A stretch of DNA of 64,000 nt from Chamaelirium japonicum. Taxonomy: Eukaryota; Streptophyta; Magnoliopsida; Liliales; Melanthiaceae. The stretch covers positions 868,001-932,000 of the forward strand of contig CANTAL010000104.1 in the NCBI GenBank assembly GCA_947650365.1, given 5' to 3'. The stretch's first letter is position 1, and every line of letters begins with the position of its first letter. Shown here piece by piece: positions 27,101 through 49,500 of this stretch. Below the pieces are notes generated by a model. It had not been told where the DNA came from, made no database searches, and saw only the letters and a list, made by a program, of their open reading frames with translations. The translations under genes were made by a program, and so were the position numbers.

Positions 27101-30079
27101 CCATTCTAATATATTCGTACGATTCATGCTAATTCATTCGCACGATCCATTCTAATTGATTCGTACGATCCATTCTTATTCATTCATACGATCCATTCTA
27201 ATTCATTCGCACAATCCATTCTAATTCATTCGCACGAATATATCCATTCTAATTCTTTCGTATGATGCATTCTAATTCATTCGTACGATCCATTCTAATT
27301 CATTCGTACGATCCTTTCTAATTCATTCGTACGATCCATTCTAATTCATTCGCACGAATGTATCCATTCTAATTCATTCGTATAATCCATTCTATTTCAT
27401 TCGTACGATCCATTCTTACTCATTCGTATGATCCATTCTAATTCATTCGTATGATCCATTCTAATTCATTCGTACGATCCATTCTAATTCATTCGTACGA
27501 TCCATTCTAATTCATTCGCACAATCTATTCTAATTCATTCATATGATCCATTCTAATTCATTCATACAATCCATTCTAATTCTTTCACACGATCCATTCT
27601 AATTCATTCGTACGATCCATTCTAATTCATTCATACAATCCATTCAATTTCATTCGTACGATCCATTCTTACTCATTCGTATGATCCATTCTAATTCATT
27701 CGTATGATCCATTCTAATTCATTCGTACGATCCATTCTAATTCATTCGTAATATCCATTCTAATTCATTCATACGATCCATTCTAGTTCATTCGTACGAT
27801 CCATTCTAATTCATTCACACGATCCATTCTAATTCATTCATAGGATCCATTCTAATTCATTCATATGATCTATTCTAATTCTTTCGCACGAATGTATCCA
27901 TTCTAATTCATTCGTACGATCCATTCTAATTCATTTGTACGATCCATTCTAATTCATTCGTACGATCCATTCTAATTCATTCGTACGATCCATTCAAATT
28001 TATTCGCACGATCCATTCTAATTCATTCGTACAATCCATTCTATTTCATTCGTACGATCCATTCTTACTCATTCGTATGATCCATTCTAATTCATTCGCA
28101 CGAATGTATCTATTCTAATCCATTCGTACGATCCATTCTAATCCATTCGTACGATCCATTCTAATTCATTCGCATGAATGTAACCATTCTAATTCATTCA
28201 TTTGATCCATTCTAATTCATTCGTACGATCCATTCTAATTCATTCGTCCGATCCATTCTAATTCATTCGCACGAATGTATCCATTCTAAACCATTCATAC
28301 GATCCATTCTAATTCATTCGTAAGATCCATTCTAATTCATTCGTACGATCCATTCTAATTCATTCGTATGATCCATTCTAATTCATTCTCACGAATGTAT
28401 CCATTCAAGTTCATTCCATACGAATTAATTAGAATAGATCATACGAATGAATTAGAATGGATCGTACGAATGAATTAGAATGGATCGTACGAATGAATTA
28501 GAATGGATACATTTGTGCGAATGAATTAGAATGGATCGTACGAATGGATTAGAATGGATACATTCGTGCAAATGAATTAGAATGGATTGTATGAATGAAT
28601 TAGAATGGATCGTACGATCCATTCGAATTCATTCGCACGATCCATTCTAATTCATTCGTACGATCCATTCTAATTCTTTCACACGATCCATTCTAATTCA
28701 TTCGTACGATCCATTCTAATTCATTCGCACGATCCATTCTAATTCATTCATAGGATCCATTCTAATTCATTCATACGATCTATTCTAATTCTTTCGAACG
28801 AATGTATCCATTCTAATTCATTCGCACGAATGTATCCATTCTAATTCATTCGTACGATCCATTCCAATTCATTCGTACGATCCATTCTAATTCATTCGTA
28901 CGATCCATTCTAATTCATTCATACGATCTATTCGAATTCATTCATACAATCGATTCTAATTCTTTCACACGATCAATTCTAATTCATTCGTACGATCCAT
29001 TCTAATTCATTCGTATGGTCCATTCTAATTCATTCGTATGATCCATTCTAATTCATTCGCTCGAATGTATCCATTCTAATCCATTCGTACGATCCATTAT
29101 AATCCATTCGTACGATCCATTCTAATTCATTCGCATGAATGTAACCATTCTACTTCATTCATTTGATCCATTCTAATTCATTCGTACGATCCATTCTAAT
29201 TCATTCGTCCGATCCATTCTAATTCATTCGCATGAATGTATCCATTCTAATTCATTCGTACGATCCATTCTAACTCATTCGCACGATCCATTCTAATTCA
29301 TTCATAGGATCCATTCTAATTCATTCGCACGAATATATCCATTCTAATTCTAATTCATTCGTACGATCCATTCTAATTCATTCGTATGATCCATTCTAAT
29401 TAATTTGTATGATCCATTCTAATTCATTCGTACGATCCATTCTAATTCATTCATACAATCCATTCTAATTCATTCGCACGATCCATTCTAATTCACTTAT
29501 ACGATCCATTCTAATACATTCATACGATCCATTCTAATTCATTTTCACGAATATATCCATTCTAATTCATTCGTACGATCCATTCTAATTCCTTCGTACG
29601 ATCCATTCTAATTCATTCGTACGATCTATTCTAATTCATTCATACAATCCATTCTAATTCATTCGTACGATCCATTCTAATTCATTCGCACAAATGTATC
29701 CATTCTAATTCATTCGTACGATCCATTCTAATTCATTTGTACGATCCATTCTAATTCATTCGTAAGATCCATTCTAATTCATTCGTACGATCCATTCTAA
29801 TTCATTCGCGAATGTACCCATTCTAATTCATTCGTACGATCCATTCTAATTCATTCGTACGATCCATTCTAATTCATTCGTACGATCCATTCTAATTCAT
29901 TCATACGATCTATTCTAATTTATTCATACAATCCATTCTAATTCTTTCACACGATCCATTCTAATTCATTCGTACGATCTATTCTAATTCATTCGCACAA
30001 TCCATTCTATTTCATTCGTACGATCCATTCTTACTCATTCGTATGATCCATTCTAATTCATTCGCACGAATGTATCCAT
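24134..30079. repeat. Satellite sub-region 6: seven orientation blocks
   Basis: Blocks are + 24134-25304, - 25305-26208, + 26209-26530, - 26531-27073, + 27074-28416, - 28417-28614 and + 28615-30079. The switches include TCGTACGATCC at 26208, CATTCTAGAATG at 26530 (a palindrome seen once), GTACGATTCATTC at 27073 and GGATCGTACGATCC at 28614. Confidence 0.88.
25302..25335 (+). repeat. 34-bp CGATCG switch, copy 2
   Basis: CGATCG at 25302-25307 and CGTACGG ending at 25335. The single difference from the copy at 10254 is a GAATAAATTAG unit. Confidence 0.85.
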
Positions 30080-30153
30080 AATGGATCATACGAATGAGTA
30101 AGAATGGATCGTACGAATGAAATAGAATGGATTGTGTGAATGAATTAGAATGG
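29979..30153 (+). repeat. Fold-back repeat, copy 2 (74-27-74 bp)
   Basis: The arms 29979-30052 and 30080-30153 flank a 27-bp loop with the same sequence and orientation as copy 1 at 17477. The GGACCG marker again follows the right arm. Confidence 0.85.
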
Positions 30154-30360
30154 ACCGTACAAATGAATTAGACGTACGAATGAATTAGAATGGATACATT
30201 CATGCGAATAAATTAGAATGGATCATACGAATGAGTAAGAATGGATCGTCATTCTAATTCATTCGTATGATCCATTCTAATTCATTTGTATCCATTCTAT
30301 TTCATTCGCATGATCCATTCTAATTCATTCGCGCAATCTATTCTAATTCATTCGTACAAT
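30045..30360. repeat. Duplicated segment with GATCGTCATTC switch, copy 1
   Basis: The segment holds the order fold-back loop, GGACCG, GAATTAGACGTACG, GGATCGTCATTC and CATTTGTATCC. It recurs 723 bp on (30770-31080), and most of it recurs at 54805-55035. Confidence 0.78.
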
Positions 30361-30748
30361 CCATTCTTACTCATTCGTACGATCCATTCTAATTCATTCA
30401 TAGGATCCATTCTAATTCATTTATACAATCCATTCTAATTCATTCGCACGAATGTATCCATTCTAATTCATTCGTACGATCAGTTCTAATTCATTCACAA
30501 AATCTATTCTAATTCATTCATACGATCCATTCTAATTCATTCGCACGAATGTATCCATTCTAATTCATTCGTACGATCCATTCTAATTCATTAATATGAT
30601 CCATTCTAATTCATTCGTACGATCCATTCTAATTCATTCTAATTCATTCGTACGATCCATTATACGATCCATTCTAATTCATTCATACAATCCATTCTAA
30701 TTCTTTCACACGATCCATTCTAATTCATTCGTAGGATCCATTCTAATT

Positions 30749-30829
30749 CATTCTTACTCATTCGTATGATCCATTCTTATTTATTCGCACGAATGTATCC
30801 ATAATGGATCATACGAATAAGTAAGAATG
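30749..30829 (+). repeat. Fold-back repeat, copy 3 (short left arm)
   Basis: The same 27-bp loop lies at 30776-30802, but the arms match for only about 27 bp because the left side continues differently. The right side still carries GGACCG near 30885. It is 723 bp from copy 2, inside a local duplication. Confidence 0.75.
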
Positions 30830-31080
30830 GATCGTACGAATGAAATAGAATGGATTGTGCGAATGAATTAGAATGGACCGTACGAATGAATTAGACGTAC
30901 GAATGAATTATAATGGATAGATTCGTGCGAATAAATTATAATGGATCATACGAATGAGCAAGAGTGGATCGTCATTCGAATTCATTCGTATGATCCATTC
31001 TAATTCATTTGTATCCATTCTATTTCATTCGCACGATCCATTCTAATTCATTCGCGCAATTTATTCTAATTCATTCGTAC
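30770..31080. repeat. Duplicated segment with GATCGTCATTC switch, copy 2
   Basis: Same order as 30045-30360. It differs by substitutions such as GGATAGATTC and GAGCAAGAG, so it is an older or faster-diverging copy. Confidence 0.75.
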
Positions 31081-34000
31081 GATCCATTCTAATTCATTCG
31101 TATGATCCATTCTAATTCATTCATACAATCCATTCTAATTTATTCGCACGAATGTATCCATCTTAATTCATTCGTACGATCCATTCTAATTCATTCGCAC
31201 AATCAATTCTAATTAATTCATACGATCCATTCTAATTCATTCGCACGAATGTATCCATTCTAATTCATTCATACGATCCATTCTACTTCATTCGTACTAT
31301 CCGTTCTAATTCACTCATACGATCCATTCTATTTCATTCTTACGATCCATTCTAATTCATTTGCACGAATTTATCCATTCTAATTCATTCGTACGATCCT
31401 GAATTAGAATGGATCGTACGAATGAATTAGAATGGATACCTTTGTGCTCGCACGAATGTATCCATTCTAATTAATTCGTACGATCCATTCTAATTCATAG
31501 GATCTATTCTAATTCATTCGTACGATCCATTCTAATTCATTCACAAAATATATTCTAATTCATTCATACGATCCATTCTAATTCATTCGCACGAATGTAT
31601 CCATTCTAATTCATTCATACGATCCATTCTAATTCATTCGTACGATTCATTCTAATTCATTCGTATGAGCTATTCTAATTCATTCGTACGATCCATTCTA
31701 ATTCATTCGTAAGATCCATTCTAATTCATTCGTACGATCCATTCTAATTCATTCATACAATCCATTCTAATTCATTCGTACGATCCATTCTAATTCATTC
31801 GCACGATCCATTCTAATCAATTCTAATTCATTTGTACGATCCATTCTAATTCTTTCACATGATCCATTCTAATTCATTCTAATCCATTCAAATTCTTTCG
31901 TGCAATCTATTCTATTTCATTCGTACAAATGAACTAGAATGGATACATTCGTACGAATGAATTAGAATGGATCATACGAATTAATTAGAATGGATCATAC
32001 GAATGAATTAGAATGGATCGTACGAATGAATTAGAATGGATCGTACGAAGGAATTAGAATGGATCGTACGAATGAATTAGAATGGATCGTACGAATGAAT
32101 TAGAATAGATCGTACGAATGAATTAGAATGGATCGTACGAAGGAATTAGAATGGATCATACGAATGAATTAGAATGGATCGTGTTAATGAATTAGAATTG
32201 ATCGAACGAATGAATTAGTATGGATCATGCTAATGAATTAGAATGGAACGTATGAATGAATTTGAATGGATCGTGTGAAAGAATTAGAATGGATTGTATG
32301 AATGAATTAGAATGAATTCGTACGATCCATTTGAATTCATTCGCACGATCCATTCTAATTCATTCATACGATTCATTCTAATTCATTCATACAATCCATT
32401 CTAATTCTTTCACACGATCCATTCTAATTCATTCCTAGGATCCATTCTAATTCATTCGTACAATCTATTCTATTTCATTCGTACGATCCATTCTTACTCA
32501 TTCGTATGATCCATTCTAATTCTTTCGGACGAATGTATCCATTCTAATTTATTCGTACGATCCATTCTAATTCATTCGTACGATCCATTCTAATTCATTC
32601 GTACGATCTATTCTAATTCATTCGTACGATCCATTCTAATTTCATTCGTACGATCCATTCTAATTCATTCGCTCGAATGTATCAATTCTAATCCATTCGT
32701 ACGATCCATTCTAATCCATTCGTACGATCCATTCTAATTCATTCGCATGAATGTAACCATTCTAATTCATTCATTTGATCCATTCTAATTCATTCGTATG
32801 ATCCATTCTAATTCATTCGTCCGATCCATTCTAATTCATTCGCACGAATGTATCCATTCTAATTCATTCGTACGATCAGTTCTAATTCATTCGTACGATC
32901 CATTCTAATTCATTCGTAAGATCCATTCTAATTCATTCGTATGATCCATTCTAATTCATTCATACGATCCATTCTAATTCATTCGCACGAATGTATCCAT
33001 TCTAGTTCATACGTACGATCCATTCTAATACATTCGTACGATCCATTCTAATTCATTCGCACGATCCATTCTAATACATTCGTACGAATGAATTAGAATG
33101 GATACCTTTGTGCATATGAATTAGAATGGATCGTACGAATGAATTAGAATGGATCATATTAATGAATTAGAATGGATCGTACGAATGAATTAGAATGGAT
33201 CGTATGAATGAATTAGAATGGATCTTACGAATGGATTAGAATGGATACATTCGTGCGAATGAATTAGAATGGATCGGACGAATGAATTAGAATGGATCGT
33301 ACGAATGAATTAGAATGGATCAAATGAATGAATTAGAATGGTTACATTCATGCGAATGAATTAGAATGGATCGTACGAATGGATTAGAATGGATCGTACG
33401 AATGGATTAGAATGGATACATTCGAGCGAATGAATTAGAATGGATTGTACGAATGAAATTAGAATGGATCGTACGAATGAATTAGAATAGATCGTACGAA
33501 TGAATTAGTATGGATCGTACGAATGAATTAGATTGGATCGTGTGAAAGAATTAGAATGGATCGTACGAATGAATTAGAATGGATCGTGCGAATGAATTAG
33601 AATGGATCGTATGAATGAATTAGAATGGATCGTGCTAATGAATTAGAATTGATCGAACGAATGAATTAGCATGGATCGTGCATTCGTACGATCCATTCTA
33701 ATTCATTCGTAAGATCCATTCTAATTCATTCGTACGATCCATTCTAATTCATTCGTACGATCCAATCTAATTCATTCGCACGAATGTATCCATTCTAGTT
33801 CATTCGTATGATCCATTCTAATTCATTCGTACGATCCATTCTAATTCATTCATACGATCTATTCTAATTCATTCATACAATCCATTCTAATTCTTTCACA
33901 CGATCCATTCTAATTCTTTCGTACGATCCATTCTAATTCATTCGCACAATCCATTCTATTTCATTCATACGATCCATTCTTACTCATTCGTATGATCCAT

Positions 34001-34450
34001 TCTAATTCATTCGCATGAATGTATCCATTCTAATTCATTCGCACGAATGTATCCATTCTAATTCATTCATTCGATCAATTCTAATTCATTCGTACGATCC
34101 ATTCTAATTCATTCGTACGATCCATTCTAATTCATTCATACGATCTATTCTAATTCATTCATACAATCCATTCTAATTCTTTCACACGATCCATTCTAAT
34201 TCATTCGTACGATCCATTCTAATTCATTCGCACAATCCATTCTATTTCATTCGTACGATCCATTCTTACTCATTGGTACGATCCATTCTAATTCATTCGC
34301 ACGAATGTATCCATTCTAATTCATTCGTACGAATCCATTCTAATTTATTCGTTCAATCCATTCTATTTCATTCGTACGATCCATTCTTACTCATTCGTAT
34401 GATCCATTCTAATTCATTCGCAAGAATGTATCCATTCTAATTCATTCATA

Positions 34451-34455
34451 CGATC
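34451..34455 (+). repeat. Left 5-bp target-site duplication CGATC
   Basis: CGATC directly precedes the LTR start TGTGACGACC. With its partner at 41044-41048 it restores one perfectly phased satellite unit when the insertion is removed. Confidence 0.82.
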
Positions 34456-34608
34456 TGTGACGACCAAGATCCAATAGGCCAATAGCCAAGAGCCAAGACT
34501 CCTGAGGCGGGAATGCCAAGATGGATGAAGTGAGGTGAGGTGCGGTAAGGTGTACAAGGCCACGAGTTAGCCCCACATCGCCTGGAGAGAAGGAGATCCT
34601 GAGCTACT

Positions 34609-34615
34609 TATATAA
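34609..34615 (+). promoter_or_regulatory. TATATAA box in Cassandra LTR
   Basis: TATATAA lies about 40 bp upstream of the 5S-like domain and is kept in every LTR copy of this insertion that includes the region (in reverse at 40354 and 40891). Conservation suggests a role in transcription, which is untested here. Confidence 0.5.
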
Positions 34616-34651
34616 TTTCCCCTCCCAAACATAGAAGACGCGTTTTAAAAC

Positions 34652-34753
34652 CGTGCGCCGCTACGGAATTCGTAAGAACTCCGTAGTTAAGCGTGCTCGG
34701 GCGAGAGTAGTACCAGGATGGGTGACCTCCTTGGGAAGTTCTCGTGCGGGCAC
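34652..34753 (+). ncRNA. 5S rRNA-like domain in LTR (group alpha)
   Basis: From AGAACTCCGTAGTTAAGCG onward this follows plant 5S rRNA: an A-box-like AGTTAAGCGTGCTCGG, an intermediate element GGCGAGAG and a C-box-like AGGATGGGTGACCTCC, here with one extra T before GGG. The first third of 5S RNA is degenerate. It is an LTR component, the hallmark of Cassandra, and not a ribosomal gene. It shares AAGCG, GGGCGAGAG and TACCAGG with the outer right LTR. Confidence 0.88.
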
Positions 34754-34797
34754 AGGCAAAGCGGACAATATCTTGTGTGTTTGGGGCGGATGTTACA

Positions 34798-34878
34798 AAA
34801 TGGTATTAGAGCCGGCTTTCCTCACAATGGGGGGGTCCTAACCCTACACGAGGACGTGTAGCCCTAAGGGGAGTGGAT
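34798..34878 (+). mobile_element. Cassandra internal domain (81 bp), PBS and PPT
   Basis: AAA is followed by a primer-binding site TGGTATTAGAGC (34801-34812), which matches the tRNA-iMet primer site TGGTATCAGAGC except for one C-to-T change. After a G-rich run the domain ends in a polypurine tract AAGGGGAGTGGAT before the next LTR. It has no coding capacity. The reversed copy at 40502-40582 is also exactly 81 bp. Confidence 0.88.
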
Positions 34879-35055
34879 TGTGACGACCAAGATCCAATAG
34901 GCCAAGCGCCAAGACTCCTGAGGCTGGGATGCCAAGATGGATAAGGTGAGGTGAGGTGAGGTGTACAAGGCCATGAGTTAGCCCCACATCGCCTGGAGAG
35001 AAGGAGATCATGAGCTACTTATATAATTTCCCCTCCCAAACATAGAAGACGCGTT

Positions 35056-35116
35056 CTAGGTGGTTCGATGGTAACCATGCTAGTGCAAAACCTTGAGGTT
35101 GAGGGTTCGAGTACCC
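35056..35116 (+). promoter_or_regulatory. tRNA/SINE-head-like Pol III module in LTR
   Basis: A-box-like TGGTTCGATGG (35061-35071) and B-box-like GGTTCGAGTAC (35104-35114) stand about 32 bp apart, as in tRNA genes and tRNA-derived SINE heads. A CCTTGAGGTTGAGG stretch precedes the B box, as in several plant SINE families. It does not fold as a complete tRNA that I can recognise. Copies are at 40079-40139 (+) and 40801-40861 (-). Confidence 0.65.
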
Positions 35117-35181
35117 AAGCGACCAATAGAGGACAATATCTTGTGTTTGGGGGCTCACCACCTTTCCTGCCAAGACGCGTT
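35117..35181 (+). other. Tail segment after the tRNA-like module
   Basis: GGACAATATCTTGTGTTTGG here repeats the tail that follows the 5S-like domain in every LTR. It continues GGGGCTCACCACC...CCAAGACGCGTT and closes the insert with the second copy of AGACGCGTT. Confidence 0.7.
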
Positions 35182-35188
35182 TTAAAGC

Positions 35189-35290
35189 CGTGCGCCGCTA
35201 CGGAATTCGTAAGAACTCCGTAGTTAATCGTGCTCGGACGAAAGTAGTACTAGGATGGGTGACCACCCTGGGAAGTCTTCGTGCGGGCAC
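35189..35290 (+). ncRNA. 5S rRNA-like domain in LTR (group beta)
   Basis: Same domain as at 34652, with shared changes AGTTAATCG, GGACGA, TACTAGG, CCACCC and GTCTTC. These are also present in the partial LTR at 40213, which makes those two copies a separate group. The A-box change AAGC to AATC may weaken Pol III recognition (inference). Confidence 0.85.
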
Positions 35291-35338
35291 GGGCAAAGCG
35301 GACAATATCTTGTGTGTTTGGGGCGGATGTTAGAAAAT

Positions 35339-35390
35339 AATCCACCCCCCTCAGGGCTACACGTCCTCGTGTAGGGTTAGACCCCCCCAT
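35339..35390 (-). mobile_element. Reversed, truncated Cassandra internal domain
   Basis: AATCCACCCCCCTCAGGGC onward is the reverse complement of the internal domain's 3' half, joined directly to the end of the plus long LTR. It stops at CCCCCCCAT, before the primer site, where the gypsy-type leader begins. It is the remnant of a further Cassandra copy in minus orientation. Confidence 0.8.
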
Positions 35391-35988
35391 AACACTTCAT
35401 GAGAGAATTCTTCTTTTATTGCATCCAGCACATACACTCATACATTCAATATATATCCTAAACTAGCAATGATTTGCTAGTCGGAATATTTATATATCCA
35501 TTAGACTTACTTACGTCCTGGTCAGACATACTTCACCTATAGGATTGTAACGTATGGGCTATTGGCAAGAGGAATTCCCTCATGAGGAATCCCATACTAC
35601 TTCATGAGAGAACTTATTGCCAAGAAAGATTCCCTCATGAGGCATCCCATACTACTTCATGAGAGAATTGATCCACTATTACATTCATATGCAGCAAAGT
35701 ATGAACATCCTAGGACGGCTATACAATAGAGGTAGTCACGTTTCTCACCAGGTTAAGATGTGTCTTTCTTAACCATTTCTACTGAAAGGCACCCCTTTCA
35801 GTAGGGTAGAAGCATAACTAGCTAACTATTACGCAAACATTGTCGGGTAAACCCTAAGTCAGTCCTAACTCAAGGATTAACTTGAGTCACTCTAGTAGGT
35901 CTTCTAGTTCACATTGCTCTACTCGTAATCTTTCCTATCTTGGATCGGGACATTCTACCCTAACTTTCCCTTAGGGTTATGTCCTTAA
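35391..35988 (-). other. Untranslated leader of the gypsy-type element
   Basis: This region lies downstream of the primer site on the minus strand, with scattered stops in the frames I checked and no gag motif. It contains a 55-bp tandem pair (35561-35615, 35616-35670) with TCCCTCATGAGG and ACTTCATGAGAGAA, and a further partial copy of the latter at the cut end (35394). Confidence 0.65.
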
Positions 35989-36000
35989 GCTCTGATACCA
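35989..36000 (-). other. Primer-binding site for tRNA-iMet (gypsy-type)
   Basis: On the minus strand TGGTATCAGAGC follows the LTR end TGACA by two bases (GC). This fixes the LTR boundary at 36003 and the element's orientation. Confidence 0.85.
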
Positions 36001-36002
36001 GC

Positions 36003-37420
36003 TGTCACGCCCCGGATTTTCCTGCGCATAGAAAACCCGAGGTGTGATAATTTTGATGATTTTTTTTTTTTTTTTGAAAATATTTTTATTTATTCTCCCT
36101 TGCTCGGATGGTCCCATCCTCGCAAGGAAGAACCAAAAGATTAAAATAGAAGGAGAATCACTCGACCATCAAGAGTATCACCTTTGGTGATCAGGAAACT
36201 ATCTCCCCAACCAAACAAGGATAGGAGACAATTCTTGATCACGTAAGAGTGTTACTCTTATGGGAGCACATAGCTCAGCCTGCAGGGCGAACTGGACATC
36301 ACATCTACTCAACTGGCCTAGAGGCCCCACGCTCAGTGTAAGGTTATTAATATTAGAGAGCAGCCGGTATTCAAACGCTTCAGTCCAATTCCACTAAACG
36401 ATTACAACTTACATGGACAATCGGTTAAAACAAATACAGGACTTTCATATGCAACACTTTATAACTATTTACAACTCTTGACCTCTATACGACTGACGAT
36501 TGCTCCACTTTCGCTCCTACTCTGGCATGCCAGCTCCGATCACTCCAGTCTTCAGGGTACACTGCTGCTCCAGCTACAACTAGCCCTCCTTTCGCTCTTA
36601 CTCCATGCTCACGAACCTCGATACCTGAATTTGGTACATGATAATTCCCAAACCCTGAGTCACTTCGAAAAGGAACGAAGTGACGCAGCGATCACCCCTA
36701 AAATATCTTGCATTCTTGTATGAATACTCTTGGTGATCGTAAAATGCGCTCCCCAACCAAACAAGGACAGGAGACACACTTCTTGGTCACGCAAGAGTAT
36801 TACTAAAAATGCAAAGTAAGACGGCTAATGAAAGCACTTAAACTATAAATCAAGTGTATGTGATCATTATATCCCAGCAAAGCCATAATGTCTATGTATA
36901 TCTATCATTATTCTTTTGCATCATTTGATTTCATCTAATGGTCATTAACTAGTACTGCTGATCTCTTATTTAAAATACACAATCTCAATTTATCAACCCT
37001 CCAATATCCTTTGCGATATCAACCCTTTATCATCATTACTAAATTCTCTACAAATACGACTCAAGGTTATCCACATGCCACTAAATCACTATGTATTACT
37101 TCCACTCATAAACACATAACCATGATTGGATCAATCACTGTTAACCTTACAATATTTGTGGCAAAACCTCAATCTATGTAACACAGTTTAAACTCAATGA
37201 TATAATCCATGATCATCAGCCCACGACCGATATCACCTATGTCTCGTCTTTGAGTCAACAATTCATAACCACAATCCATCGTGGTCGATACTACCACAAC
37301 TTACCATGCGAACGCACTTAGGATAAGGATCTTGCCGAAGCCACACTTGTCCTTAACCTAAACGAATTATCTACTATTTCGATTCATGCTTTTTTCATGC
37401 TTATCAACTTAATCCAATCA
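36003..37420 (-). other. 3' part of the long gypsy-type LTR
   Basis: On the minus strand this is the LTR end, finishing in CGGGGCGTGACA. It includes a T-run at 36060-36075 and an imperfect direct repeat of about 72-75 bp (36184-36255 and 36730-36804) sharing CTCCCCAACCAAACAAGGA. Short open frames here have no recognisable domain. I see no gene. Confidence 0.6.
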
Positions 37421-38470
37421 TTAGGGTCATGGACCCTTAAAATTTGTGTAGGGCCATTTGCCCTTAATTCTAACATAGGGTCATAGACCCTCAAGTAATC
37501 ATAGGGTTATTAGCCTTTAAACAAATATAGGGGGTAAGCCCTCAACAATCATAGGTCCCTTGACCTTATCATATTCATGGCATTTACAAACATTCATATA
37601 TCATTTATCCTAAACATGGCATCATCATATTCAGGTGTTATTAATTATTGTATCATTAAACCAATACATATCATCTATTTTCCTATACATGTTATTAATC
37701 CCTAATAATGATGTTATTTAGACTTTAATTACACATGAGTTATCGAACCCTTATTGCACATGGTTCGTCGGACCCTAATTGTTGTATGGATAAATGTACC
37801 CTAATTTCACTTAAGTTAAAATCCTATTTTCATACAGACCCTCTGACCCAAACTATGCAAGTGTCTTCAAACCTTGATGTAATTGGTTTGTCGGATCCTA
37901 ATCACACTTGGGTCAATCCGATCGTGGATATATATATGGGCGAAACCCTAATTCCCGCATGATTCCTACAACCCCAATTTCGTATGGGTCATCAGACCCT
38001 GACCATCTATGGATTATCAGGACCTAATTATATATGGGTCATCAGACCCTAATTATACAAAGGTCAACAGACCCTAGTAGTATGAATGGTTCATCAGACC
38101 TAGGTTACTTATGGGTCATCAGATCCTGGTTATCTATGGTCTTCAGACCTTGATCGTATATGGGTCATCAGACCCTGATTACCTACGGGTCATCAGACCC
38201 TAGTTATCTATGTGTCATCATACCTTGATCGTATATGGGTCATCAGACCCTGGTCACATATCGATCCTCCGACCATGGTTGCTCATGGGTCATCAGACCC
38301 TCGTTGCACATGAGTCAACAAACCTTAGCTACATATGGTTCATTTTACCTAGTCATGGGTCAGCAGACCCGTGTCAGGTATATGTCATCCGACTTTAGTT
38401 AAGTATGAGTCATTGGACCCAATCGCATTTGAGTCAATTATACATGGATTGTCAGACCCCAATTGCACAT
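37421..38470. repeat. Degenerate minisatellite of about 28 bp inside the LTR
   Basis: Some 30 decayed copies of a unit with the core GGGTCATCAGACCCT, itself an inverted repeat (GGGTC...GACCC), are separated by AT-rich spacers such as AATTATATAT. Early copies read GGGTCATGGACCC or GGGTCATAGACCC. Each core could form a small hairpin. The short open frames across it are by-products of the repeat. Confidence 0.75.
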
Positions 38471-39120
38471 TGATCACCTATAATTCACATTTGCTTTCAC
38501 AAACATTTTAAGTACGGTTAGGTTTGACTAGTAGGGAATCGTCCCCGAAAGGTACGTGGATCCGACTTTTGGACGGTTGCGACTCAATGGGCAAGTGGGG
38601 CCCCTAAGTCTTCGAGGGTCCCCCACTGGATTTCAATGGTATGAATAGATGGGTCTCTGGATTCGGGATCCGGTGTCGTCAGTTTCACGGCAATCGGAAT
38701 TCGGACCATAAAGTTACGATCAAACCGCGATCGGTTGAACTGGGTCCCACGTAAGTGCATTTTGGTAATTAATTATTTTTTTAAATAAACCTATCGTAAA
38801 CAGGTAGGTCTCTTCGAAATGGTTCCGTTGCCGCCAGTTTCGCTGAATTCCGACTCCGGACACCGAAATGGCGGCCCAACCAAGGTCAGCGGGTTCAACG
38901 GTCTGGTTCAAGTGAAGCGGACTGGGTTCACTATACAGTCTGAACCAGACCGGATTAACTATATAGTTGGGTCAGATTTCAGAGGATAAATGGGTCGGGT
39001 CGGGTCTGTCACTTAAGTGGGCCATTCATAGCATATACATATATATTTTTCAAACTTAATTTACTAATAAGCTCTTAAAAGTCATATCATTTCCTAATGG
39101 TGCCCCCCTCCCTCTCACTG
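38471..39120 (-). other. Middle part of the gypsy-type LTR
   Basis: This stretch has repeated motifs such as GTCAGTTTCACGGCAATCGG and GCCAGTTTCGCTGAATTCCG near 38676 and 38835, and an AT-rich TATATATTT run at 39040-39050 that could be a TATA box on the minus strand. The imperfect hairpin CACTGTAACAGTG is at 39116-39128. No gene is seen. Confidence 0.45.
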
Positions 39121-40068
39121 TAACAGTGGACGTTGGGGGAGGGGTTGCTCTACCCCGGTGCCGTTTCGTTGGCGGCAATCCGAAGGGAGCATAGAGGAGA
39201 CCCACATAGTTGTAACGGTCCGATTTACAGCGGCCCGGACTCTAGCCGGCGAGCTTCGTGGTCCAAGACCACCACAAGGATGGCTCGGGTTGGATTACGG
39301 CCGCCTCGTCGTCGGCCGGGGAGGTTTACATACAAAGGAGGGCCGTACGGATAAAAAGGGATCACGGGGTGCGGAGTACCCGGCCGGGGTGGCCGGTCGT
39401 GGTGCACGGAAGAAAACAAAAAGGAGGAGGTGTAGGGGCTTGCCTCGGTTGTAGGGGAGGAGTTGGGGCTGTCGGTGCGTCACGCCGAGGAGGAGGTGGT
39501 GGCGGGGTTGTGCCGTCGCCGGGGAGGAGGAGCCGCCACTGCAGCCACCGTGTGACTCCCTCTCCTCTCCTTCTTCTTCTTCCTTTCTCCTCTGATTTCT
39601 CTCTTTCTCTTTTCTCTTCTCTCTTTTCCTCTCTTTCTCTCTTTCTTCTCTCTTTTCCTCTCTCTCTCTCTCTTTTCGGCTGACCTGAAATGGGGGGAGG
39701 GGCTTGCCGGGGTCGCCGACACCACTGCGACGGAGGAAGAGGCCGGATTCTCTACCGGTGCCGTCGCCGGCGTTGTCACCACCGCCGTCACCGCCGCCGC
39801 TTGCTGCTGCTCCGCCTCCCCCTTTCTTCTCCTCTCTCTCTTTCTTCTGGTTTCCCGAAGTGGGGGTGGGGTTCGGTTTAAAGGGTGAGGGTGAGAGGGC
39901 TTGGTTTTCAATGGTTTGGGGAGATAGGTGACGGGCTGATGGGAGGGGGCCGGGTTTGGTGGATCTGGTCCCCTCTCCTCTATCTCTCCCTCCATTTATC
40001 TCCATTCCATCTCGCTCTCTCCATTTAGCATCTCAAGGTGGGATCAGCTAGCCAAGTGGAATAGGCTC
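39121..40068. other. GC-rich and CT-rich low-complexity stretch
   Basis: GC-rich triplet-like sequence (GCCGCC, GGAGGA) surrounds a CT-rich tract at about 39550-39680. This composition keeps several frames open on both strands at once, and none has a recognisable domain. It may be the 5' part of the LTR or captured plant sequence. 40028-40068 links it to the Cassandra fragment without a visible duplication. Confidence 0.4.
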
Positions 40069-40346
40069 AAGACGCATTCTAGGTGGTTCGATGGTAACCA
40101 TGCTAGTGCAAAACCTTGAGGTTGAGGGTTCAAGTACCCAAGAGACCAATAGAGGACAATATCTTGTGTTTGGGGGCTCACCACCTTTCCTGCCAAGACG
40201 CGTTTTAAAGCCGTGCGCCGCTACGGAATTCGTAAGAACTCCGTAGTTAATCGTGCTCGGACGAGAGTAGTACTAGGATGGGTGACCACCCTAGGAAGTC
40301 TTCGTGCGGGCACGAGCAAAGCGGACAATATCTTGTGTGTTTGGGA
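40069..40346 (+). mobile_element. Partial Cassandra LTR, Pol III modules only, plus strand
   Basis: The fragment starts at AAGACGCATTCTAGG and holds the tRNA-like module (40079-40139, B box GGTTCAAGTAC), the linking tail and the group-beta 5S-like domain (40213-40313). It runs into TGTTTGGG at 40338-40345, where the sequence turns over into the reversed LTR 5' part. It lacks both LTR ends. Confidence 0.82.
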
Positions 40347-40501
40347 GGGGAAATTATATAAGTAGCTCATGATCTCCTTCTCTCCAGGCGATGTGGGGCT
40401 AACTCATGGCCTTGTACACCTCACCTCACCTCACCTCATCCATCTTGGCATCCCAGCCTCAGGAGTCTTGGCTCTTGGCCTATTGGATCTTGGTCGTCAC
40501 A
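40341..40501 (-). mobile_element. Reversed 5' part of a Cassandra LTR
   Basis: On the minus strand it starts TGTGACGACC at 40501 and continues through the TATA region (40354-40360) to CCCAAACA. It then joins the Pol III modules in the wrong orientation. It is the 3' LTR of the minus element whose internal domain follows. Confidence 0.82.
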
Positions 40502-40582
40502 ATCCACCCCCTTTAGGGCTACACGTCCTCATGTAGGGTTAGACCCCCCCCATTGCGAGGAGAGCCGGCTCTGATACCATTT
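40502..40582 (-). mobile_element. Cassandra internal domain (81 bp), minus
   Basis: The intact primer site TGGTATCAGAGC lies at 40568-40579 on the minus strand. The polypurine tract AAAGGGGGTGGATT is at 40502-40515. Unlike the left copy, the primer site has no mismatch. Confidence 0.88.
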
Positions 40583-41043
40583 TGTAACATCCGCCCCAAA
40601 CACACAAGATATTGTCCGCTTTGCCCGTGCCCGCACGAGAACTTCGCAGGGAGGTCACCCATCCTGGTACTACTCTCGCCCGAGCACGCTTAACTACGGA
40701 GTTCTTACGAATTCCGTAGCGGCGCACGGCTTTAAAACGCGTCTTGGCAGGAAAGGTGGTGAGCCCCCAAACACAAGATATTGTCCTCTATTGGTCTTTT
40801 GGGTACTCGAACCCTCAACCTCAAGGTTTTGCACTAGCATGGTTACCATCGAACCACCTAGAACGCGTCTTCTATGTTTGGGAGGGCAAATTATATAAGT
40901 AGCTCATGATCTCCTTCTCTCCAGGCGATGTGGGACTAACTCATGGCCTTGTACACCTCACCTCACCTCACCTCACCTCATCCATCTTGGCATCCCAGCC
41001 TCAGGAGTCTAGGCTCTTGGCCTATTGGATCTTGGTCGTCACA
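40583..41043 (-). mobile_element. Complete long-form Cassandra LTR (461 bp), minus
   Basis: On the minus strand it runs from TGTGACGACC (41043) to TGTTACA (40583), both ends intact. It carries the tRNA-like module (40801-40861), its tail, and a 5S-like domain at 40627-40727 of group alpha (AGTTAAGCG, GGGCGAGAG, TACCAGG), as in the outer left LTR. Five GGTGA-type repeats occur near 40960-40980, against three or four in the other copies. Confidence 0.88.
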
Positions 41044-41048
41044 CGATC
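41044..41048 (+). repeat. Right 5-bp target-site duplication CGATC
   Basis: CGATC follows the right LTR end and continues CATTCTACTTCATTCG. The same continuation is found at the four empty sites. Confidence 0.82.
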
Positions 41049-44000
41049 CATTCTACTTCATTCGTACTATCTGTTCTAATTCACTCATACGATCCATTCT
41101 AATTCATTCATACAATCCATTCTAATTCATTTGCACGAATATATCCATTCTAATTCCTTCGTACGATCCATTCTAATTCCTTCGTACGATCCATTCTAAT
41201 TCCTTCGTACGATCTATTCTATTTCATTCGTATGATCCATTCTAATTCCTTCATACGATCCATTCTAATTCCTTCGTATCCATTCTAATTCACTCATACG
41301 ATCCATTCTAATTCATTCGTACGATCCATTCTAATTCATTCATATAATCCATTCTAATTCATTCGCACGAATGTATCCATTCTAATCCATTCGTACGATC
41401 CATTCTAATTCATTCGCATGAATGTAACCATTCTAATTCATTCATTTGATCCATTCTAATTTATTCGTACGATCCATTCTAATTCATTCGTACGATCCAT
41501 TCTAATTCATTCGCACGAATGTATCCATTCTAGTTCATTCGTACGATCCATTCTAATTCATTCGTACGATCCATTCTAATTCATTCGCACGATCCATTCT
41601 AATTCATTCGTACGATCCATTCTAATTCATTCGCACAAATGTATCCATTCTAATTCATTCGTACGATCCATTCTAATTCATTCGCACGATCCATTCTAAT
41701 TCATTCGTACGATCCATTCTAATTCATTCGCACGATCTGTTCTTATTCATTCGCACAATCCATTCTAATTCATTCGCACGAATGTATCCATTCTAATTCA
41801 TTCGTACGATCTATTCTAATTCATTCGTACGATCCATTCTAATTCATTCGTATGATCCATTCTAATTAATTCGTATGATCCATTCTAATTCATTCGTACG
41901 ATCCATTCTAATTCATTCATACAATCCATTCTAATTCATTCGCACGAATGTATCCATTCTAATTAATTCGTACGATCCATTCTAATTCATTCGTATGATC
42001 TATTCTTATTCATTCGCACGATCCAGTCTAATTGATTCGCACGATCCATTCTAATTCATTCGCACGAATGTATCCATTCTAATTCATTCGTACGATCCAT
42101 TCTAATTCATTAATATGATTCATTCTAATTCATTCGTACGATCCATTCTAATTCATATGCACAATGGTATCCATTCTAATCCATTCGTAGTGTGAAAGAA
42201 TTAGAATGAATTAGAATAGATCGTACGAATGAATTAGAATGGATTGTGCGAATAAATTAGAATGGACCGTACGAATGAATTAGAATGGATCGTATGAATG
42301 AATTAGAATGGATACATTCGTGCGAATGAATTAGAATGGATCGGACGAATGAATTAGAGTGGATCGTACGAATGAATTAGAATGGATCAAATGAATGAAT
42401 TAGAATGGTTACATTCATGCGAATGAATTAGAATGGATCGTACGAATAGATTAGAATGGATCGTACGAATGAATTAGAATGGATCATACGAATGAGTAAG
42501 AATGAATCGTACGAATGAATTAGAATGGATACATTTGTGCGAATGAATTAGAATGGATCGTACGAATGAATTAGAATGGATCGTATGAATTAATTAGAAT
42601 GGATCGTAGGAATGAATTAGAATGGATCATACGAATGAGTAAGAATGAATCGTACGAATGAATTAGAATGGATACATTTGTGCGAATGAATTAGAATGGA
42701 TCGTACGAATGAATTAGAATGGATCGTATGAATGAATTAGAATGGATCGTGTGAATAAATTCGAATGGATCGTACGAATTCATTCTAATTCATTCATACA
42801 ATCCATTCTAATTCTTTCACACGATCCATTCCAATTCATTCGTACGTTCCATTCTAATTCATTAGGACGATCTATGCTAATTCATTCGTTCGATCAATTC
42901 TAATTCATTAGCACGACCCATTCTAATTCATTCGTACGATCCATTCTAATTCATTCTAACGATCCATTCCAATTCATTCATAGGATCCATTCTAATTCAT
43001 TCATACGATCTATTCTAATTCTTTCGCACGAATGTATTCATTCTAATTCATTCATACGATCCATTCTAATTCATTCGTACGATCCATTCTACTTCATGCG
43101 AATGAATTAGAATGGATCGTACGAATGGATTAGAATGGATCGTACGAATGGATTAGAATGGATACATTCGAGCGAATGAATTAGAATGGATCGTACGAAT
43201 GAATTAGAATGGATCGTACGAATGGATTAGAAAGGATCCAACGAATGGATTAGAATGGATACCTTTGTGCATATGAATTAGAATGGATCGTACGAATGAA
43301 TTAGAATGGATCATATTAATGAATTAGAATGGATCGTACGAATGAATTAGAATGGATACATTCGTGCGAATGAATTTGAATGGATCATGCGAATCAATTA
43401 GACTGGATCGTACGAATGAATTAGAATGGATCATACGAATGAATTAGAATAGATCGTACGAATGAACTAGAATGGATACATTCGTGCGAATGAATTAGAA
43501 TGGATCGTACGAATGAATTAGAATGGATCGTACGAATGAATTAGAATGGATCTTACGAATGAATTAGAATTGATCGTACGAATGCACGATCCATGCTAAT
43601 TCATTCGTTCGATCAATTCTAATTCATTAGCACGATCCATTCTAATTCATTCGTACGATCCATTCTAATTCATTCGCACGATCCATTCTAATTCTTTCGT
43701 ACGATCCATTCTAATTCTTTCACACGATCCATTCTAATTCATTCGTACAATCCATTCTAATTCATTCGCAATCTATTCTAATTCATTCGTACGAATGGAT
43801 ACATTCGTGTGAATGAATTAGAATGGATCGTGTGAAAGAATTAGAATGGATCGTACGAATGAATTAGAATGGATCGTACGAATGAATTAGAATGGTTACA
43901 TTCATGCGAATGAATTAGAATAGATCGTGCGAATGAATTAGAATGGATTCGTACGAATGAATTAGAATGGATACATTCGTGCGAATGAATTAGAATGGAT

Positions 44001-46073
44001 CGTACCAATGAGTAAGAATGGATCGTACGAATGAAATAGAATGGATTGTGCGAATGAATTAGAATGGATCGCACGAATGTATCCATTCTAATTCATTCGT
44101 ACGATCCATTCTAATTCATTCGTACGATCCATTCTAATTCATTCGTACGATCCATTCTAATTCATACGATCCATTCTAATTAATTCGTATGATCCATTCT
44201 AATTCATTCGTACGATCCATTCTAATTCATTCATATAATCCATTCTAATTCATCCGTACGATCCATTCTAATTCACTCATGCGATCTATTCTAATACATT
44301 CATACGATCCATTCTAATTCATTTGCACGAATATATCCATTCTAATTCATTCGTACGATCCATTCTAATTCCTTCGTACGATCCATTCTAATTCATTCGT
44401 ACGATCTATTCTAATTCATTCGTACGATCCATTCTAATTCATTCGTACGAATGAATTAGAATGGATACATTCGTGCGAATGAATTAGAATGGATACATTC
44501 GTGCGAAAGAATTAGAATAGATCGTATGAATGAATTAGAATGGATCCTATGAATGAATTAGAATGGATCGTGCGAATGAATTAGAATGGATCGTACGAAA
44601 GAATTAGAATGGATCGTGCTAATGAATTAGAATTGATCGAACGAATGAATTAGCATGGATCGTGCTAATGAATTAGAATGGATCGTACGAATTAATTAGA
44701 ATGGATCAAATGAATGAATTAGAATGCTTACATTCATGCGAATGAATTAGAATGGATCGTACGAAAGGATTAGAATGGATCGTACGAATGGATTAGAATG
44801 GATACATTCGAGCGAATGAATTAGAATGGATCGTACGAATGAATTAGAATGGATCGTACGAATAAATTAGAATGGATACATTCGTCCGAATGAATTAGAA
44901 TGGATCATACGAATGAGTAAGAATGGATCGTACGAATGAAATAGAATAGATTGTACGAATGAATTAGAATGGATTCGTACGAATGAATTAGAATGGATCG
45001 TACGAATGAATTAGAATGGATCATACGAATTAATTAGAATGGATCGTACGAATGAATTAGAATGGATCGTACGAATGAATTAGAATGGATACATTCGTGC
45101 GAATGAATTAGAATGGATCGGACGAATGAATTAGAATAGATCGTACGAATGAATTAGAATGGATTGTATGAATGAACTAGAATGGATCGTACGAATGAAT
45201 TAGAATGGATCGTATGAATGAATTAGAATGGATCGTACGAATGGATTAGAATGGATTGTACGAATGAATTAGAAAGGATCCTACGAATGAATTAGAATGG
45301 ATCGTGTGAAAGAATTAGAGTGGATTGTATGAATGAATTAGAATGGATCGTATGAATGAATTAGAATGGATCGTGCGAATGAATTAGAATTGATCGAACG
45401 AATGAATTAGCATTGATCGTGCTAATAAATTAGAATGGAACGTACGAATGAATTAGAATGGATCGTGTGAAAGAATTAGAATGGATTGTATGAATGAATT
45501 AGAATGAATTCGTACGATCCATTCGAATTCATTCGCACGATCCATTCTAATTCATTCATACGATCCATTCTAATTCATTCATACAATCCATTCTAATTCT
45601 TTCACACGATCCATTCTAATTCATTCGTAGGATCCATTCTAATTCATTCGTACAATCCATTCTAATCCATTCGTACGATCCATTCTAATTCATTCGTACG
45701 ATCCATTCTAATTCATTCATACAATCCATTCTAATTCATTCGCACGAATGTATCCATTCTAATCCATTCGTACGATCCATTCTAATTCATTCGTAAGATC
45801 AAATTCTAATTCATTCGTACGATCCATTCTAATTCATTCGTACAATCCATTCTAATTCATTCGCACGAATGTATCCATTCTAATTCATTTGTACAATCCA
45901 TTCTATTTCATTCGTACGATCCATTCTTACTCATTTGTATGATCCATTCTAATTCATTCGTACGATCCATTCTAATTCATTCGTACGATCCATTCTAATT
46001 CATTCGCACGATCCATTCTAATTCATTCATACGATCCATTCTAATTCATTCATACGATCCATTCAAATTCATT

Positions 46074-46166
46074 CCTACAATCCATTCTATTTCATTCGCC
46101 CGATCCATTCTAATTCATTCATACGATCCATTCTATTCGAATGGATCATGCGATCCATTCGAATTC
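46074..46166 (+). repeat. 93-bp block with inverted island, copy 3
   Basis: Same order as at 5071, 93 bp. It differs by single bases, for example GAATTCGTTCG just after the island. Confidence 0.85.
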
Positions 46167-46495
46167 GTTCGCACGATCCATTCTAATTCATTCATACGAT
46201 CCATTCTAATTCATTCATACAATGCATTCTAATTCTTTCACACGATCCATTCTAATTCATTCGTACGATCCATTCTAATTCATTCGTACAATCCATTCTA
46301 TTTCATTTGTACGATCCATTCTTACTCATTCGTTTGATCCATTCTAATTCATTCGTACGATCCATTCTAATTAATTTGTACGATCCATTCTAATTCTTTC
46401 ACACGATCCATTCTAATTTATTCGTAGGATCCATTCTAATTCATTCGTACAATCTATTCTAATTCATTCGTACGATCCATTCTAATTCATTCGTA

Positions 46496-46529
46496 CGATC
46501 GTACGAATGAATTAGAATGGATCGTACGG
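46496..46529 (+). repeat. 34-bp CGATCG switch, copy 3
   Basis: CGATCG at 46496-46501 and CGTACGG ending at 46529. The following units (GGATTGTATGAATG, then a 28-bp unit) are shared with the copy at 48108. Confidence 0.85.
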
Positions 46530-49500
46530 AATGAATTAGAATGGATTGTATGAATGAATTAGAATGGATACATTCGTGCGAATGAATTAGAATGGATCAT
46601 ACGAATGAGTAAGAATGGATCGTACGAATGAAATAGAATGGATTGTTCAAATGAATTAGAATGGATCGTACAAATGAATTAGAATGGATCGTACGAATGA
46701 ATTAGAATAGATCATACGAATGAATTAGAATGGATCGTGTGAAAGAATTAGAATGGATTGTATGAATGAATTTGAATAGATCGTATGAATGAATTAGAAT
46801 GGATCATACGAATGAATTAGAATGGATCGTACGAATGAACTAGAATGGATACATTCGTGCGAATGAATTAGAATGGATCGTACGAATGAATTAGAATGGA
46901 TCTTACGAATGAATCAGAATGGATCGTACGAATGCACGATCCATGCTAATTAATTCGTTCGATCAATTCTAATTCATTAGCACGATCCATTCTAATTCAT
47001 TCGCACGATCCATTCTAATTCATTCGTATGATCCATTCTAATTCTTTCACACGATCCATTCTAATTCATTCGTACGATCCATTCTAATTCATTCGTACGA
47101 TCTATTCTAATTCATTCGTACGGTCCATTCTAATTCATTCGTACGATCCATTCTAATTCCTTCGTACGATCCATTCTAATTCATTCATACAATCTATTCT
47201 AATTCATTCATACAATCCATTCTAATTATTTCACACGATCCATTCTAATTCATTCGTACGATCCATTCTAATTCATTCATACAATCCATTCTAATTCTTT
47301 CACACGATCCATTCTAATTCATTCGTACGTTCCATTCTAATTCATTAGCACGATCCATGCTAATTCATTCGTTCGATCAATTCTAATTCATTAGCACGAT
47401 CCATTCTAATTCATTCGTACGATCTATTCTAATTCTTTTGCACGAATGTATCCATTCTAATTCATTCGCACGAATGTATCCATTCTAATTCATTCGTATG
47501 ATCCATTCTAATTCATTCGTACGATCCATTCTAATTCATTCGTACGATCCATTCTAATTCATTCATACGATCTATTCTAATTTATTCATACAATCCATTC
47601 TAATTCTTTCACACGATCCATTCTAATTCATTCGTACGATGCATTCTAATTCATTCGCACAATCCATTCTATTTCATTCGTACGATCCATTCTTACTCAT
47701 TGGTACGATCCATTCTAATTCATTCGCACGAATGTATCCATTCTAATTCATTCGTACGAATCCATTCTAATTCATTCGTACAATCCATTCTATTTCATTC
47801 GTACGATCCATTCTTACTCATTCGTATGATCCATTCTAATTCATTTGCACGAATGTATCCATTCTAAATCATTCGTACGATCCATTCTAATTCATTCGTA
47901 CGATCCATTCTAAATCATTCGTACAATCCATTCTATTTCATTCGTACGATCAATTCTAATTCATTAGCACGATCCATTCTAATTCATTCATACGATCCAT
48001 TCAAATTCATTCGCACGATCCATTCTAATTCATTCGTGCAATCCATTCTATTTCATTCGTACGATCCATTCTTACTCATTCGTAAGATCCATTCTAATTC
48101 ATTCGTACGATCGTACGAATGAATTAGAATGGATCATACGGAATGAATTAGAATGGATTGTATGAATGAATTAGAATGGATACATTCGTGCGAATAAATT
48201 AGAATGGATCATACGAATGAGTAAGAATGGATCGTACGAATGAGTAAGAATGGATCGTACGAATGAATTAGAATAGATCGTACGAATGAATTAGAATGGA
48301 TCGTACGAATGAATTAAAATGGATACATTCCTGCGAATGAATTAGAATGCATCGGACGAATGAATTAGAATGGATCGTACGAATGAACTAGAATGGATAC
48401 ATTCGTGCGAATGAATTAGAATGGATCGTACGAATGAATTAGAATGGATCGTACGAATGAATTTGAATGGATCTTACGAATGAATTAGAATGGATCGTAC
48501 GAATGAATTAGAATGGATCGTACGAATGAATTAGAATGGATACATTCGTGCGAATGAATTAGAATGGATCAGACGAATGAATTAGAATGGATCGTACGAA
48601 TGAATTAGAATGGATCAAATGAATGAATTAGAATGGTTACATTCATGCGAATGAATTAGAATGGATCGTACGAATGGACTAGAATGGATCATACGAATGG
48701 ATTAGAATGGATACATTCGAGCGAATGAATAAGAATGGATCGTACGAATGAATTAGAATGGATCGTACGAATGCATTAGAATGGATCCTACGAATGGATT
48801 AGAATGGATACCTTTGTGCATATGAATTAGAATGGATCGTACGAATGAATTAGAATGGATCATATTAATGAATTAGAATGGATCGTACGAATGAATTAGA
48901 ATGGATACAATCGTGCGAATGAATTAGAATGGATCGTGCGAATCCATTAGACTGGATCGTGCGAATGAATAAGAGTGGATCATACGAATGAATTAGAATG
49001 GATCATACGAATTAGAATGAATTAGAATGAATCGTATGAATTAGAATGGATCGTACGAATGAATTAGAATGGATCGTACGAATGAATTAGAATGGATCGT
49101 ACAAATGAATTAGAATGGATCGTGCGAATGAATTAGAATGGATCGTACCAATGAGTAAGAATAGATCGTACGAATGAATAGAATGAATCGTATGAATGAA
49201 TTAGAATGGATACATTCGTGTGAATGAATTAGAATGGATCGTATGAATGAATTAGAATAGATTTTGTGAAAGAATTAGAATGGATTAGAATGGATCGTAC
49301 GAATGAATTAGAATGGATACATTCGTGCGAATAAATTAGAAAGGATCGGACGAATGAATTAGAATGGATCGTACGAATGAATTAGAATGGATCGTACGAA
49401 TGAATTAGAATAGATTGTACGAATGAATTAGAATGGATCAAATGAATGAATTAGAATGGTTACATTCATGCGAATGAATTAGAATGGATCGTACGAATGG

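Follow-up and report, generated by a model that had tools for sequence, protein, structure and literature searches.

A Cassandra-type miniature retrotransposon of Chamaelirium japonicum with 5S-like and tRNA-like modules in one long terminal repeat

Can one long terminal repeat (LTR) hold two kinds of putative RNA polymerase III (Pol III) promoter, and how might it have come by the second? The question is raised by a 64,000-nucleotide stretch of the Chamaelirium japonicum genome (contig CANTAL010000104.1, positions 868,001 to 932,000; here called the window), in which a sequence-only reading had described three LTR copies of a Cassandra-type terminal-repeat retrotransposon in miniature (TRIM), each with a 126-bp insert upstream of a 5S-like domain. 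All three copies are confirmed, with the inserts at 35046–35171 (+), 40069–40194 (+) and 40871–40746 (-). We hold, with slightly better than even confidence, that they belong to a Cassandra-type TRIM subfamily whose LTR is built of exchangeable cassettes, each composed of a short repeat (R), a module and a U5 segment, that the second cassette was born of a template switch, and that Pol III starts from the first R (R1).

The organization is clearest in the 456-bp hybrid LTR at 34879–35334 (+), which is ordered U3-R1-tRNA-like module-U5 copy-R2-5S-U5. The insert consists of R1 (35046–35055, 10 bp), the putative RNA start region; a 68-bp module (35056–35123); a 31-bp copy of the start of the LTR's own U5 (35124–35154); and a final 17 bp (35155–35171) for which searches gave no source. 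It is followed by R2 (35172–35181) and two further T residues, making TTTT, then by the 5S-like module (35184–35293) and U5 (35294–35334). Both R1 and R2 read AAGACGCGTT, so that the insert has this repeat on both sides; the copy at 40069 has AAGACGCATT instead. The U5 copy, which accounts for 31 of the 126 bp, scores 42, and the maximum among 2000 shuffles is 22. Two 5S-like domains of the window exceed the Rfam 5S gathering score of 38 bits (34638–34752 (+), 42.1 bits; 40742–40624 (-), 38.7 bits), and the one downstream of the first insert (35175–35293) is just below it, at 36.3 bits. Other Cassandra traits are present, namely two LTRs, a Met-type primer-binding site (PBS), a polypurine tract (PPT), and a non-coding internal region of about 80 bp.

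The sequence is as the sequence-only reading described it, with a tRNA-like module and a 5S-type module in one LTR, and the second half of the tRNA-like module aligns over 28–29 nt with nuclear tRNA-Lys genes of the same genome. The alignment score of 36 is reached by none of 1000 dinucleotide shuffles (best 35) and none of 4580 window tiles (best 25); the comparison comprised five tRNA-Lys genes only, picked after the likeness had been noticed, and thus does not settle the isotype. The first half alone does not stand out as tRNA-like (317 of 1000 shuffles are as good). Both promoter motifs pointed out earlier are in the kind of place described, with the box-B-like GGTTCGAGTAC at 35104–35114 being fair, but the box-A-like TGGTTCGATGG at 35061–35071 weak. 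Their starts are 43 nt apart, against 44 in tRNA-Lys; for the motif pair, 38 of 1000 shuffles and 2 of 3364 window tiles do as well or better, and for that of the variant at locus L089, with an exact box B, 3 of 1000 shuffles do so. A 22-mer spanning box B has three matches in the window with up to three mismatches, where none is expected. On the strength of the tRNA-Lys alignment, the module appears to be tRNA-derived, with a degraded box A. An origin from the primer tRNA was set aside, since the module resembles tRNA-Lys and presumably not initiator tRNA-Met. A Vault RNA match in L089 (11.3 bits, E 4.7) was taken as chance, and 63 genome matches to the Rfam tRNA family RF00005 with equal top score were not used, those inspected being tRNA-Lys(TTT), taken as plastid.

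Neither the module nor the hybrid LTR is peculiar to this locus. Genome-wide searches covered this one 1.52-Gb plant genome, where an 18-base module pattern with one base free has 555 matches (control 1), and the U3-R junction AAACATAGAAGACGCGTTYTA, with T or C at its key base, has 4132 (control 0). The hybrid-type C was found at 9 among 100 junction places listed, all on contig C1; viral contigs were also searched, with no match. The module is thus neither unique to the window nor lacking in tRNA similarity, and the earlier proposal stands on both counts. An assembly artefact was rejected, there being hundreds of module copies over many contigs.

Five cassette orders were found: 5S only, tRNA-like then 5S, tRNA-like twice then 5S, 5S then tRNA-like, and tRNA-like only. 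A set of 101 complete LTRs, which leaves out loci L002, L003, L005, L006 and L008 (repeats of others) and L001 (the window itself), contains 56 hybrid, 34 5S-only, 6 double-module and 5 tRNA-like-only LTRs, proportions that carry no frequency meaning because loci were picked mainly for having the module. For the hybrid and for each of the three derived forms, there is at least one insertion that carries the form in both LTRs and is flanked by an exact 5-bp target duplication. For example, L010 has the module twice in both LTRs, which differ at 1 of 594 positions, with the duplication CGGCC; L101 lacks 5S in both LTRs, has PBS and PPT, and shows 9 differences in 287 aligned bases and the duplication CTTAA; and L102/L104 has 5S before the tRNA-like module, in both LTRs of L102, with the duplication GATAA and 3 differences in 302 aligned bases, a comparison that leaves out about 135 bp of the 5' U3. 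L017 is without 5S like L101, no 5S module being found in either of these tRNA-like-only copies, and its duplication matches at four of five positions. Mixed pairs also occur: L087 has a 5S-only 5' LTR and a hybrid 3' LTR with one exact duplication around both, and L016 has a tRNA-like-only 5' LTR and a hybrid 3' LTR.

Among 14 simple elements with two hybrid LTRs, the 5-bp duplication is exact in eight (two of them homopolymers, CCCCC and AAAAA), has one mismatch in one, and is absent in five; the array L019, with two runs, is outside this count, and its outer flanks match. Divergence between paired hybrid LTRs (K) ranges from 0 to 0.051, with a median of 0.014 (18 pairs, arrays included), and that of 5S-only pairs from 0.003 to 0.059 (8 pairs). 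The hybrid is not brand new, because old, diverged copies at L015, at 80–92% to pieces of the window, already have the U5 copy in the insert. Junctions of module and U5 with no 5S between were found at 26 places (control 0), three of which are by eye ordinary 5S ends; of the remaining 23, ten were read, with eight in tRNA-like-only LTRs and two in L102, whose order is reversed. The junction places show two or more module variants, which points to more than one origin or to exchange between copies. The 5S cassettes seem to duplicate too, L013:20–299 being two tandem 5S-U5 units.

Where would the RNA of such an LTR begin? The distance from TATATAA (35020–35026 in the first hybrid LTR) to the first GACGCGTT is 28 nt in 28 of 34 5S-only, 41 of 56 hybrid, all six double-module and four of five tRNA-like-only LTRs. 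Six hybrids give 154 nt, the first exact motif being R2 with R1 altered, and one gives 42; the others have no exact motif or are outside the listed values. The AAGACGCGTT repeats resemble two copies of a start region R, placed 28 nt from the TATA box, more than the target duplication of a SINE (short interspersed nuclear element); the repeats noted earlier do flank the insert, but their reading as the mark of a SINE capture seems to give way to two R copies. In 5S-only LTRs the 5S module is just downstream of the expected start, and TTTT comes six bases into GACGCGTTTT; in hybrids the tRNA-like module comes after the first R, with box A about 10–15 nt from the expected start. R1 (AGACGCGTTCTAGG) is also where two independent copies are cut short beside foreign DNA, one at window position 40069 (with the near-identical L009) and the other at L097; the scan, which detects truncations near R only, picked out 3 of the 206 R sites, and two of these are one locus present in two copies. 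These ends hint at the complementary-DNA end of an RNA started at R1. With TATATAA 28 nt upstream and two truncated copies beginning there, we propose that the hybrid RNA may start at R1 and have the tRNA-like module near its 5' end.

The mechanism that we favor would then run as follows. R would be the short RNA-end repeat of the scheme for Cassandra RNA, which runs from the 5S of the 5' LTR to the 5S of the 3' LTR and has short end repeats (Kojima 2024, PMC10886601; partial text). TATATAA would set the RNA start at the first R, and in hybrids the tRNA-like module would be directly past the start, as in a tRNA gene, with the 5S module shifted 126 bp away; plant tRNA genes have an upstream TATA in 22–32%, an upstream CAA in 78–82% and downstream T-runs in 67–72% of cases (PMC11700998, partial text). 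The least certain step is that Pol III would start at R1 through the TATA box and the tRNA-like boxes; if it does, the 5S module would be dispensable and some copies could lose it. Enzymes for reverse transcription and integration would have to come from another LTR retrotransposon, because the internal region is only about 80 bp. The second cassette would have arisen when reverse transcriptase switched templates between two RNAs that had R in common and were packaged together, and cassettes would later have been shuffled through the short R and U5 repeats, R and GGACAATATCTTGTGT.

Several findings weigh against this account. Box A is weak, with 3 of 15 bits; the exact box B GGTTCGANNCC is present in 10 of 90 modules, and the commonest form has one extra base. 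For the L089 variant, the tRNA-Lys alignment score is reached by 1 of 1000 shuffles and there is no cloverleaf (z -0.87), and the module has no RF00005 match at E<=10. ARAGORN finds no tRNA in the window, and on these grounds the module was rejected as a tRNA gene. Of the truncated copies, L097 is not flanked by a target duplication, and there are several further irregular left ends at positions other than R1. A Pol III transcript begun at R1 could terminate after about 135 nt, at the TTTT that follows R2; the tRNA-like-only L101 and L017 contain no TTTT, and for that reason it is hard to see where Pol III would end their RNA. A single deletion step from a hybrid RNA could account for a tRNA-like-only copy with two LTRs. 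Set against that of U3, the diversity of 5S in hybrids (0.0576/0.0479) does not exceed that in 5S-only LTRs (0.0425/0.0331), and so gives no sign of a 5S module freed from constraint. Lastly, trees of U3 and of 5S, both with little resolution and mostly open forks, do not group the module-bearing LTRs as one clade: the U3 tree requires 23 changes against a shuffled mean of 26.2 (55 of 500 as low), and the 5S tree 20 against 27.2 (0 of 500 as low). There is some clustering of module-bearing LTRs on the 5S tree, which permits no conclusion about a single origin.

The TATA box admits another use. It could drive RNA polymerase II (Pol II) from R in all forms, with both small-RNA modules as swappable passengers in the transcribed region. 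We consider this unlikely, even though TATATAA and the 28-nt spacing are common to all forms measured, copies without 5S or TTTT have still inserted, and Cassandra-like elements without 5S but with TATA boxes are described (Maiwald 2024, PMC10853983; partial text). The inserted module is tRNA-derived and not random, the 5S promoter is conserved in 81 Cassandras according to the available part of the same paper, and Cassandra is described with Pol III transcripts (Kojima 2024, PMC10886601; partial text).

It is also conceivable, at a lower probability that we would call slight, that the 5S module alone works, with RNA beginning at R2 and the tRNA-like insert hitch-hiking in U3. Such a start would have TTTT after R2, where an ordinary Cassandra RNA is expected to end, but it would be 154 nt from the TATA box, against 28 nt for R1, and the two truncated copies start at R1 and not at R2. 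The 5S module is kept in 62 of 67 module-bearing complete LTRs, its relative diversity there is not raised, and box B is altered in the commonest form of the module; against this, L101 lacks 5S in both LTRs and yet has an exact target duplication.

As for the source of the insert, the sequence-only reading offered either a captured SINE head or template switching onto a tRNA-like RNA. That a tRNA-type SINE or SINE fragment entered a Cassandra LTR and duplicated 10 bp of target there has a published precedent in the model for the origin of Helenus, the TRIMs with a tRNA-like LTR for which Selaginella is the sole plant case given (Kojima 2024, PMC10886601, section 4.2 for the model; partial text). 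The tRNA-like head and the AAGACGCGTT on both sides would suit it, and yet we think it improbable here, to much the same degree as a 5S module working alone. The insert contains a copy of the LTR's own U5, already present as a U5-like stretch in the oldest hybrid copy read (L015), and has no SINE body and no poly(A), nor were solo copies seen; a captured SINE head, as first proposed, is thus not supported. The head of the insert has five genome matches in other left flanks, which, judged by letters alone, resemble altered Cassandra flanks, and its 3' end has four matches elsewhere, three resembling small junction changes and the fourth at C10:3257000.

One part of the SINE idea survives. The box-B half has 121 genome matches, most of which, among about 100 listed, are by letters one module variant, and seven of those listed are in loci read as Cassandra (L084, L089, L095, L100 and L101). 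A non-Cassandra locus, L105 (G000:C5:89082690-89082850), has AAAACCTTGAGGTGGAGGGTTCGATTTCC, which agrees with the module's box-B half at 26 of 29 nt, and relatives of this half thus exist in the genome. Nothing further in its 161 bases is common with the insert, and neither ARAGORN nor Rfam finds a tRNA there; L105 may be what is left of a tRNA or SINE akin to the donor sequence, and this match makes it possible that the box-B half came from a tRNA or a SINE. As a whole, the insert reads as a second cassette (R, tRNA-derived module and a copy of the LTR's U5) and not as a plain SINE, and template switching, as earlier proposed, stays the best origin, one that would fit the U5 copy and the shared R repeats. 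The module and the 5S each look like an R-module-U5 cassette because they are between the same short repeats. The same arrangement, R and GGACAATATCTTGTGT around each, would suit an older tRNA-like-only LTR whose fusion with a 5S LTR gave the hybrid, making the family a plant Helenus that met Cassandra, but this is the least probable alternative, since the tRNA-like-only copies are rare, have at least two module variants and, where read, fit a hybrid that has lost the stretch between its two U5 repeats, and the short 5' LTR of L016 has GGACAAAATC, the variant found in the own U5 of the hybrid LTR paired with it.

The hybrid LTRs of the window are part of a 6,588-bp composite block (34456–41043). 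At its left is a 342-bp 5S-only Cassandra-type LTR (34456–34797, +), ordered U3-R-5S-U5 without the insert, followed by an internal region (34798–34878, +) with the PBS TGGTATTAGAGC at 34801–34812, within which we take TGGTATCAGAGC to be the match to initiator tRNA-Met, and a purine tract before 34879. Beyond the first hybrid LTR are an inverted fragment of Cassandra internal region (35335–35388, -) and foreign DNA that resembles a portion of a different LTR element, one whose PBS is of the Met type (35389–40068, -). The right part contains the hybrid copy without U3 that starts at R1 beside the foreign DNA (40069–40338, +), an inverted Cassandra U3 fused to it (40339–40501, -), an internal region with PBS and PPT (40502–40582, -), and a hybrid LTR of 461 bp (40583–41043, -). 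The whole composite resembles a single insertion, its border U3 ends being oppositely oriented. CGATC is present at both edges, and this duplication is weaker evidence than usual because CGATC belongs to the unit of the 23-bp satellite (ATTCGTACGATCCATTCTAATTC) in which the block is located; the satellite is long at 30000–34455 and 41043–49992, and its orientation switches several times. A near-identical second copy of the block on contig C146, 99.4% over the foreign part, is probably the other haplotype; both are treated as one locus, and the LTR count includes both, with three LTRs each.

The 4.7-kb foreign segment (35389–40068, -) includes a possible 4-kb LTR (TGAGCC...CGTGACA) followed by a Met-type PBS like that of Cassandra, beyond which are about 600 bp in which no minus-strand frame is free of stops; 25-bp repeats (TATGGGTCATCAGACCCTGATTATA-like) are present at 37946–38406. 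Its junction with Cassandra falls in a ATGGGGGG common to both, resembling the product of a template switch between RNAs packaged together, and the foreign element may be a candidate helper or a relative of the helper. A bolder proposal, which we regard as tentative and on balance doubtful, is that this lineage is changing its promoter class: the hybrid LTR, with type 1 and type 2 Pol III promoters and a start at R1 set by a shared TATA box, would have yielded copies transposing on the tRNA-like promoter alone. The composite in the window, which joins Cassandra to an LTR element with the same type of PBS, may point to a helper that packages Cassandra. Activity of both promoters in the hybrid LTR, like any use by Pol III, is putative and deduced from sequence features.

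The finding bears on how Cassandra gained, keeps or loses its 5S promoter; Cassandra-like elements without 5S have been discussed either as precursors or as 5S losers (Maiwald 2024, PMC10853983; partial text). In this genome, 5S-only, hybrid, reordered and 5S-less forms occur together; copies that keep both modules, swap their order or drop 5S hint at how elements can exchange promoters. Because the forms coexist, several with near-identical LTRs, such an exchange is directly testable by RNA-end mapping.

Among known systems, the dicistronic tRNA-5S rRNA genes of Yarrowia, reportedly described by Acker in 2008, similarly have a tRNA module directly upstream of 5S, but they are functional cellular genes and not LTRs. 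Cassandra TRIMs are said to have been described by Kalendar in 2008, an attribution also made by Kojima. The elements described here share with them the 5S-like LTR module, Met-type PBS, PPT, a non-coding internal region of about 80 bp, 5-bp duplications and tandem or mixed arrays, and differ in the second, tRNA-derived R-U5 cassette, in the varying order and number of cassettes, and in that some copies lack 5S. Further accounts of Cassandra are available (Kalendar 2020, PMC7215508; Maiwald 2024, PMC10853983; both in partial text), and the hybrids here, at about 1.0 kb, compare with 563–968 bp in the 81 Cassandras of the latter. A literature search in which subscription journals were thinly covered, leaving absence unproven, gave no report of 5S and tRNA modules in one LTR; the word 'hybrid' is absent from the accessible part of the Helenus and Cassandra paper (PMC10886601), and 'tRNA' from the accessible main text of Maiwald 2024 (PMC10853983).

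The Asteraceae Cassandra-like TRIMs without 5S (Maiwald 2024, PMC10853983; partial text) are likewise Cassandra relatives with a TATA box and no 5S, whereas here a tRNA-like module replaces the 5S and the genome has the hybrid form as well. With Helenus there is a common set of tRNA-like LTR sequence, PBS, PPT and 5-bp duplications, to which a putative box B may be added, but in this plant the module is inside a Cassandra, is mostly paired with 5S, and has a weak box A. The combination of an LTR without 5S, a PBS, a PPT and a 5-bp duplication, as in Helenus, is found in L101 only, whereas the hybrids keep 5S. The finding thus connects Cassandra and Helenus, two groups that have been described separately.

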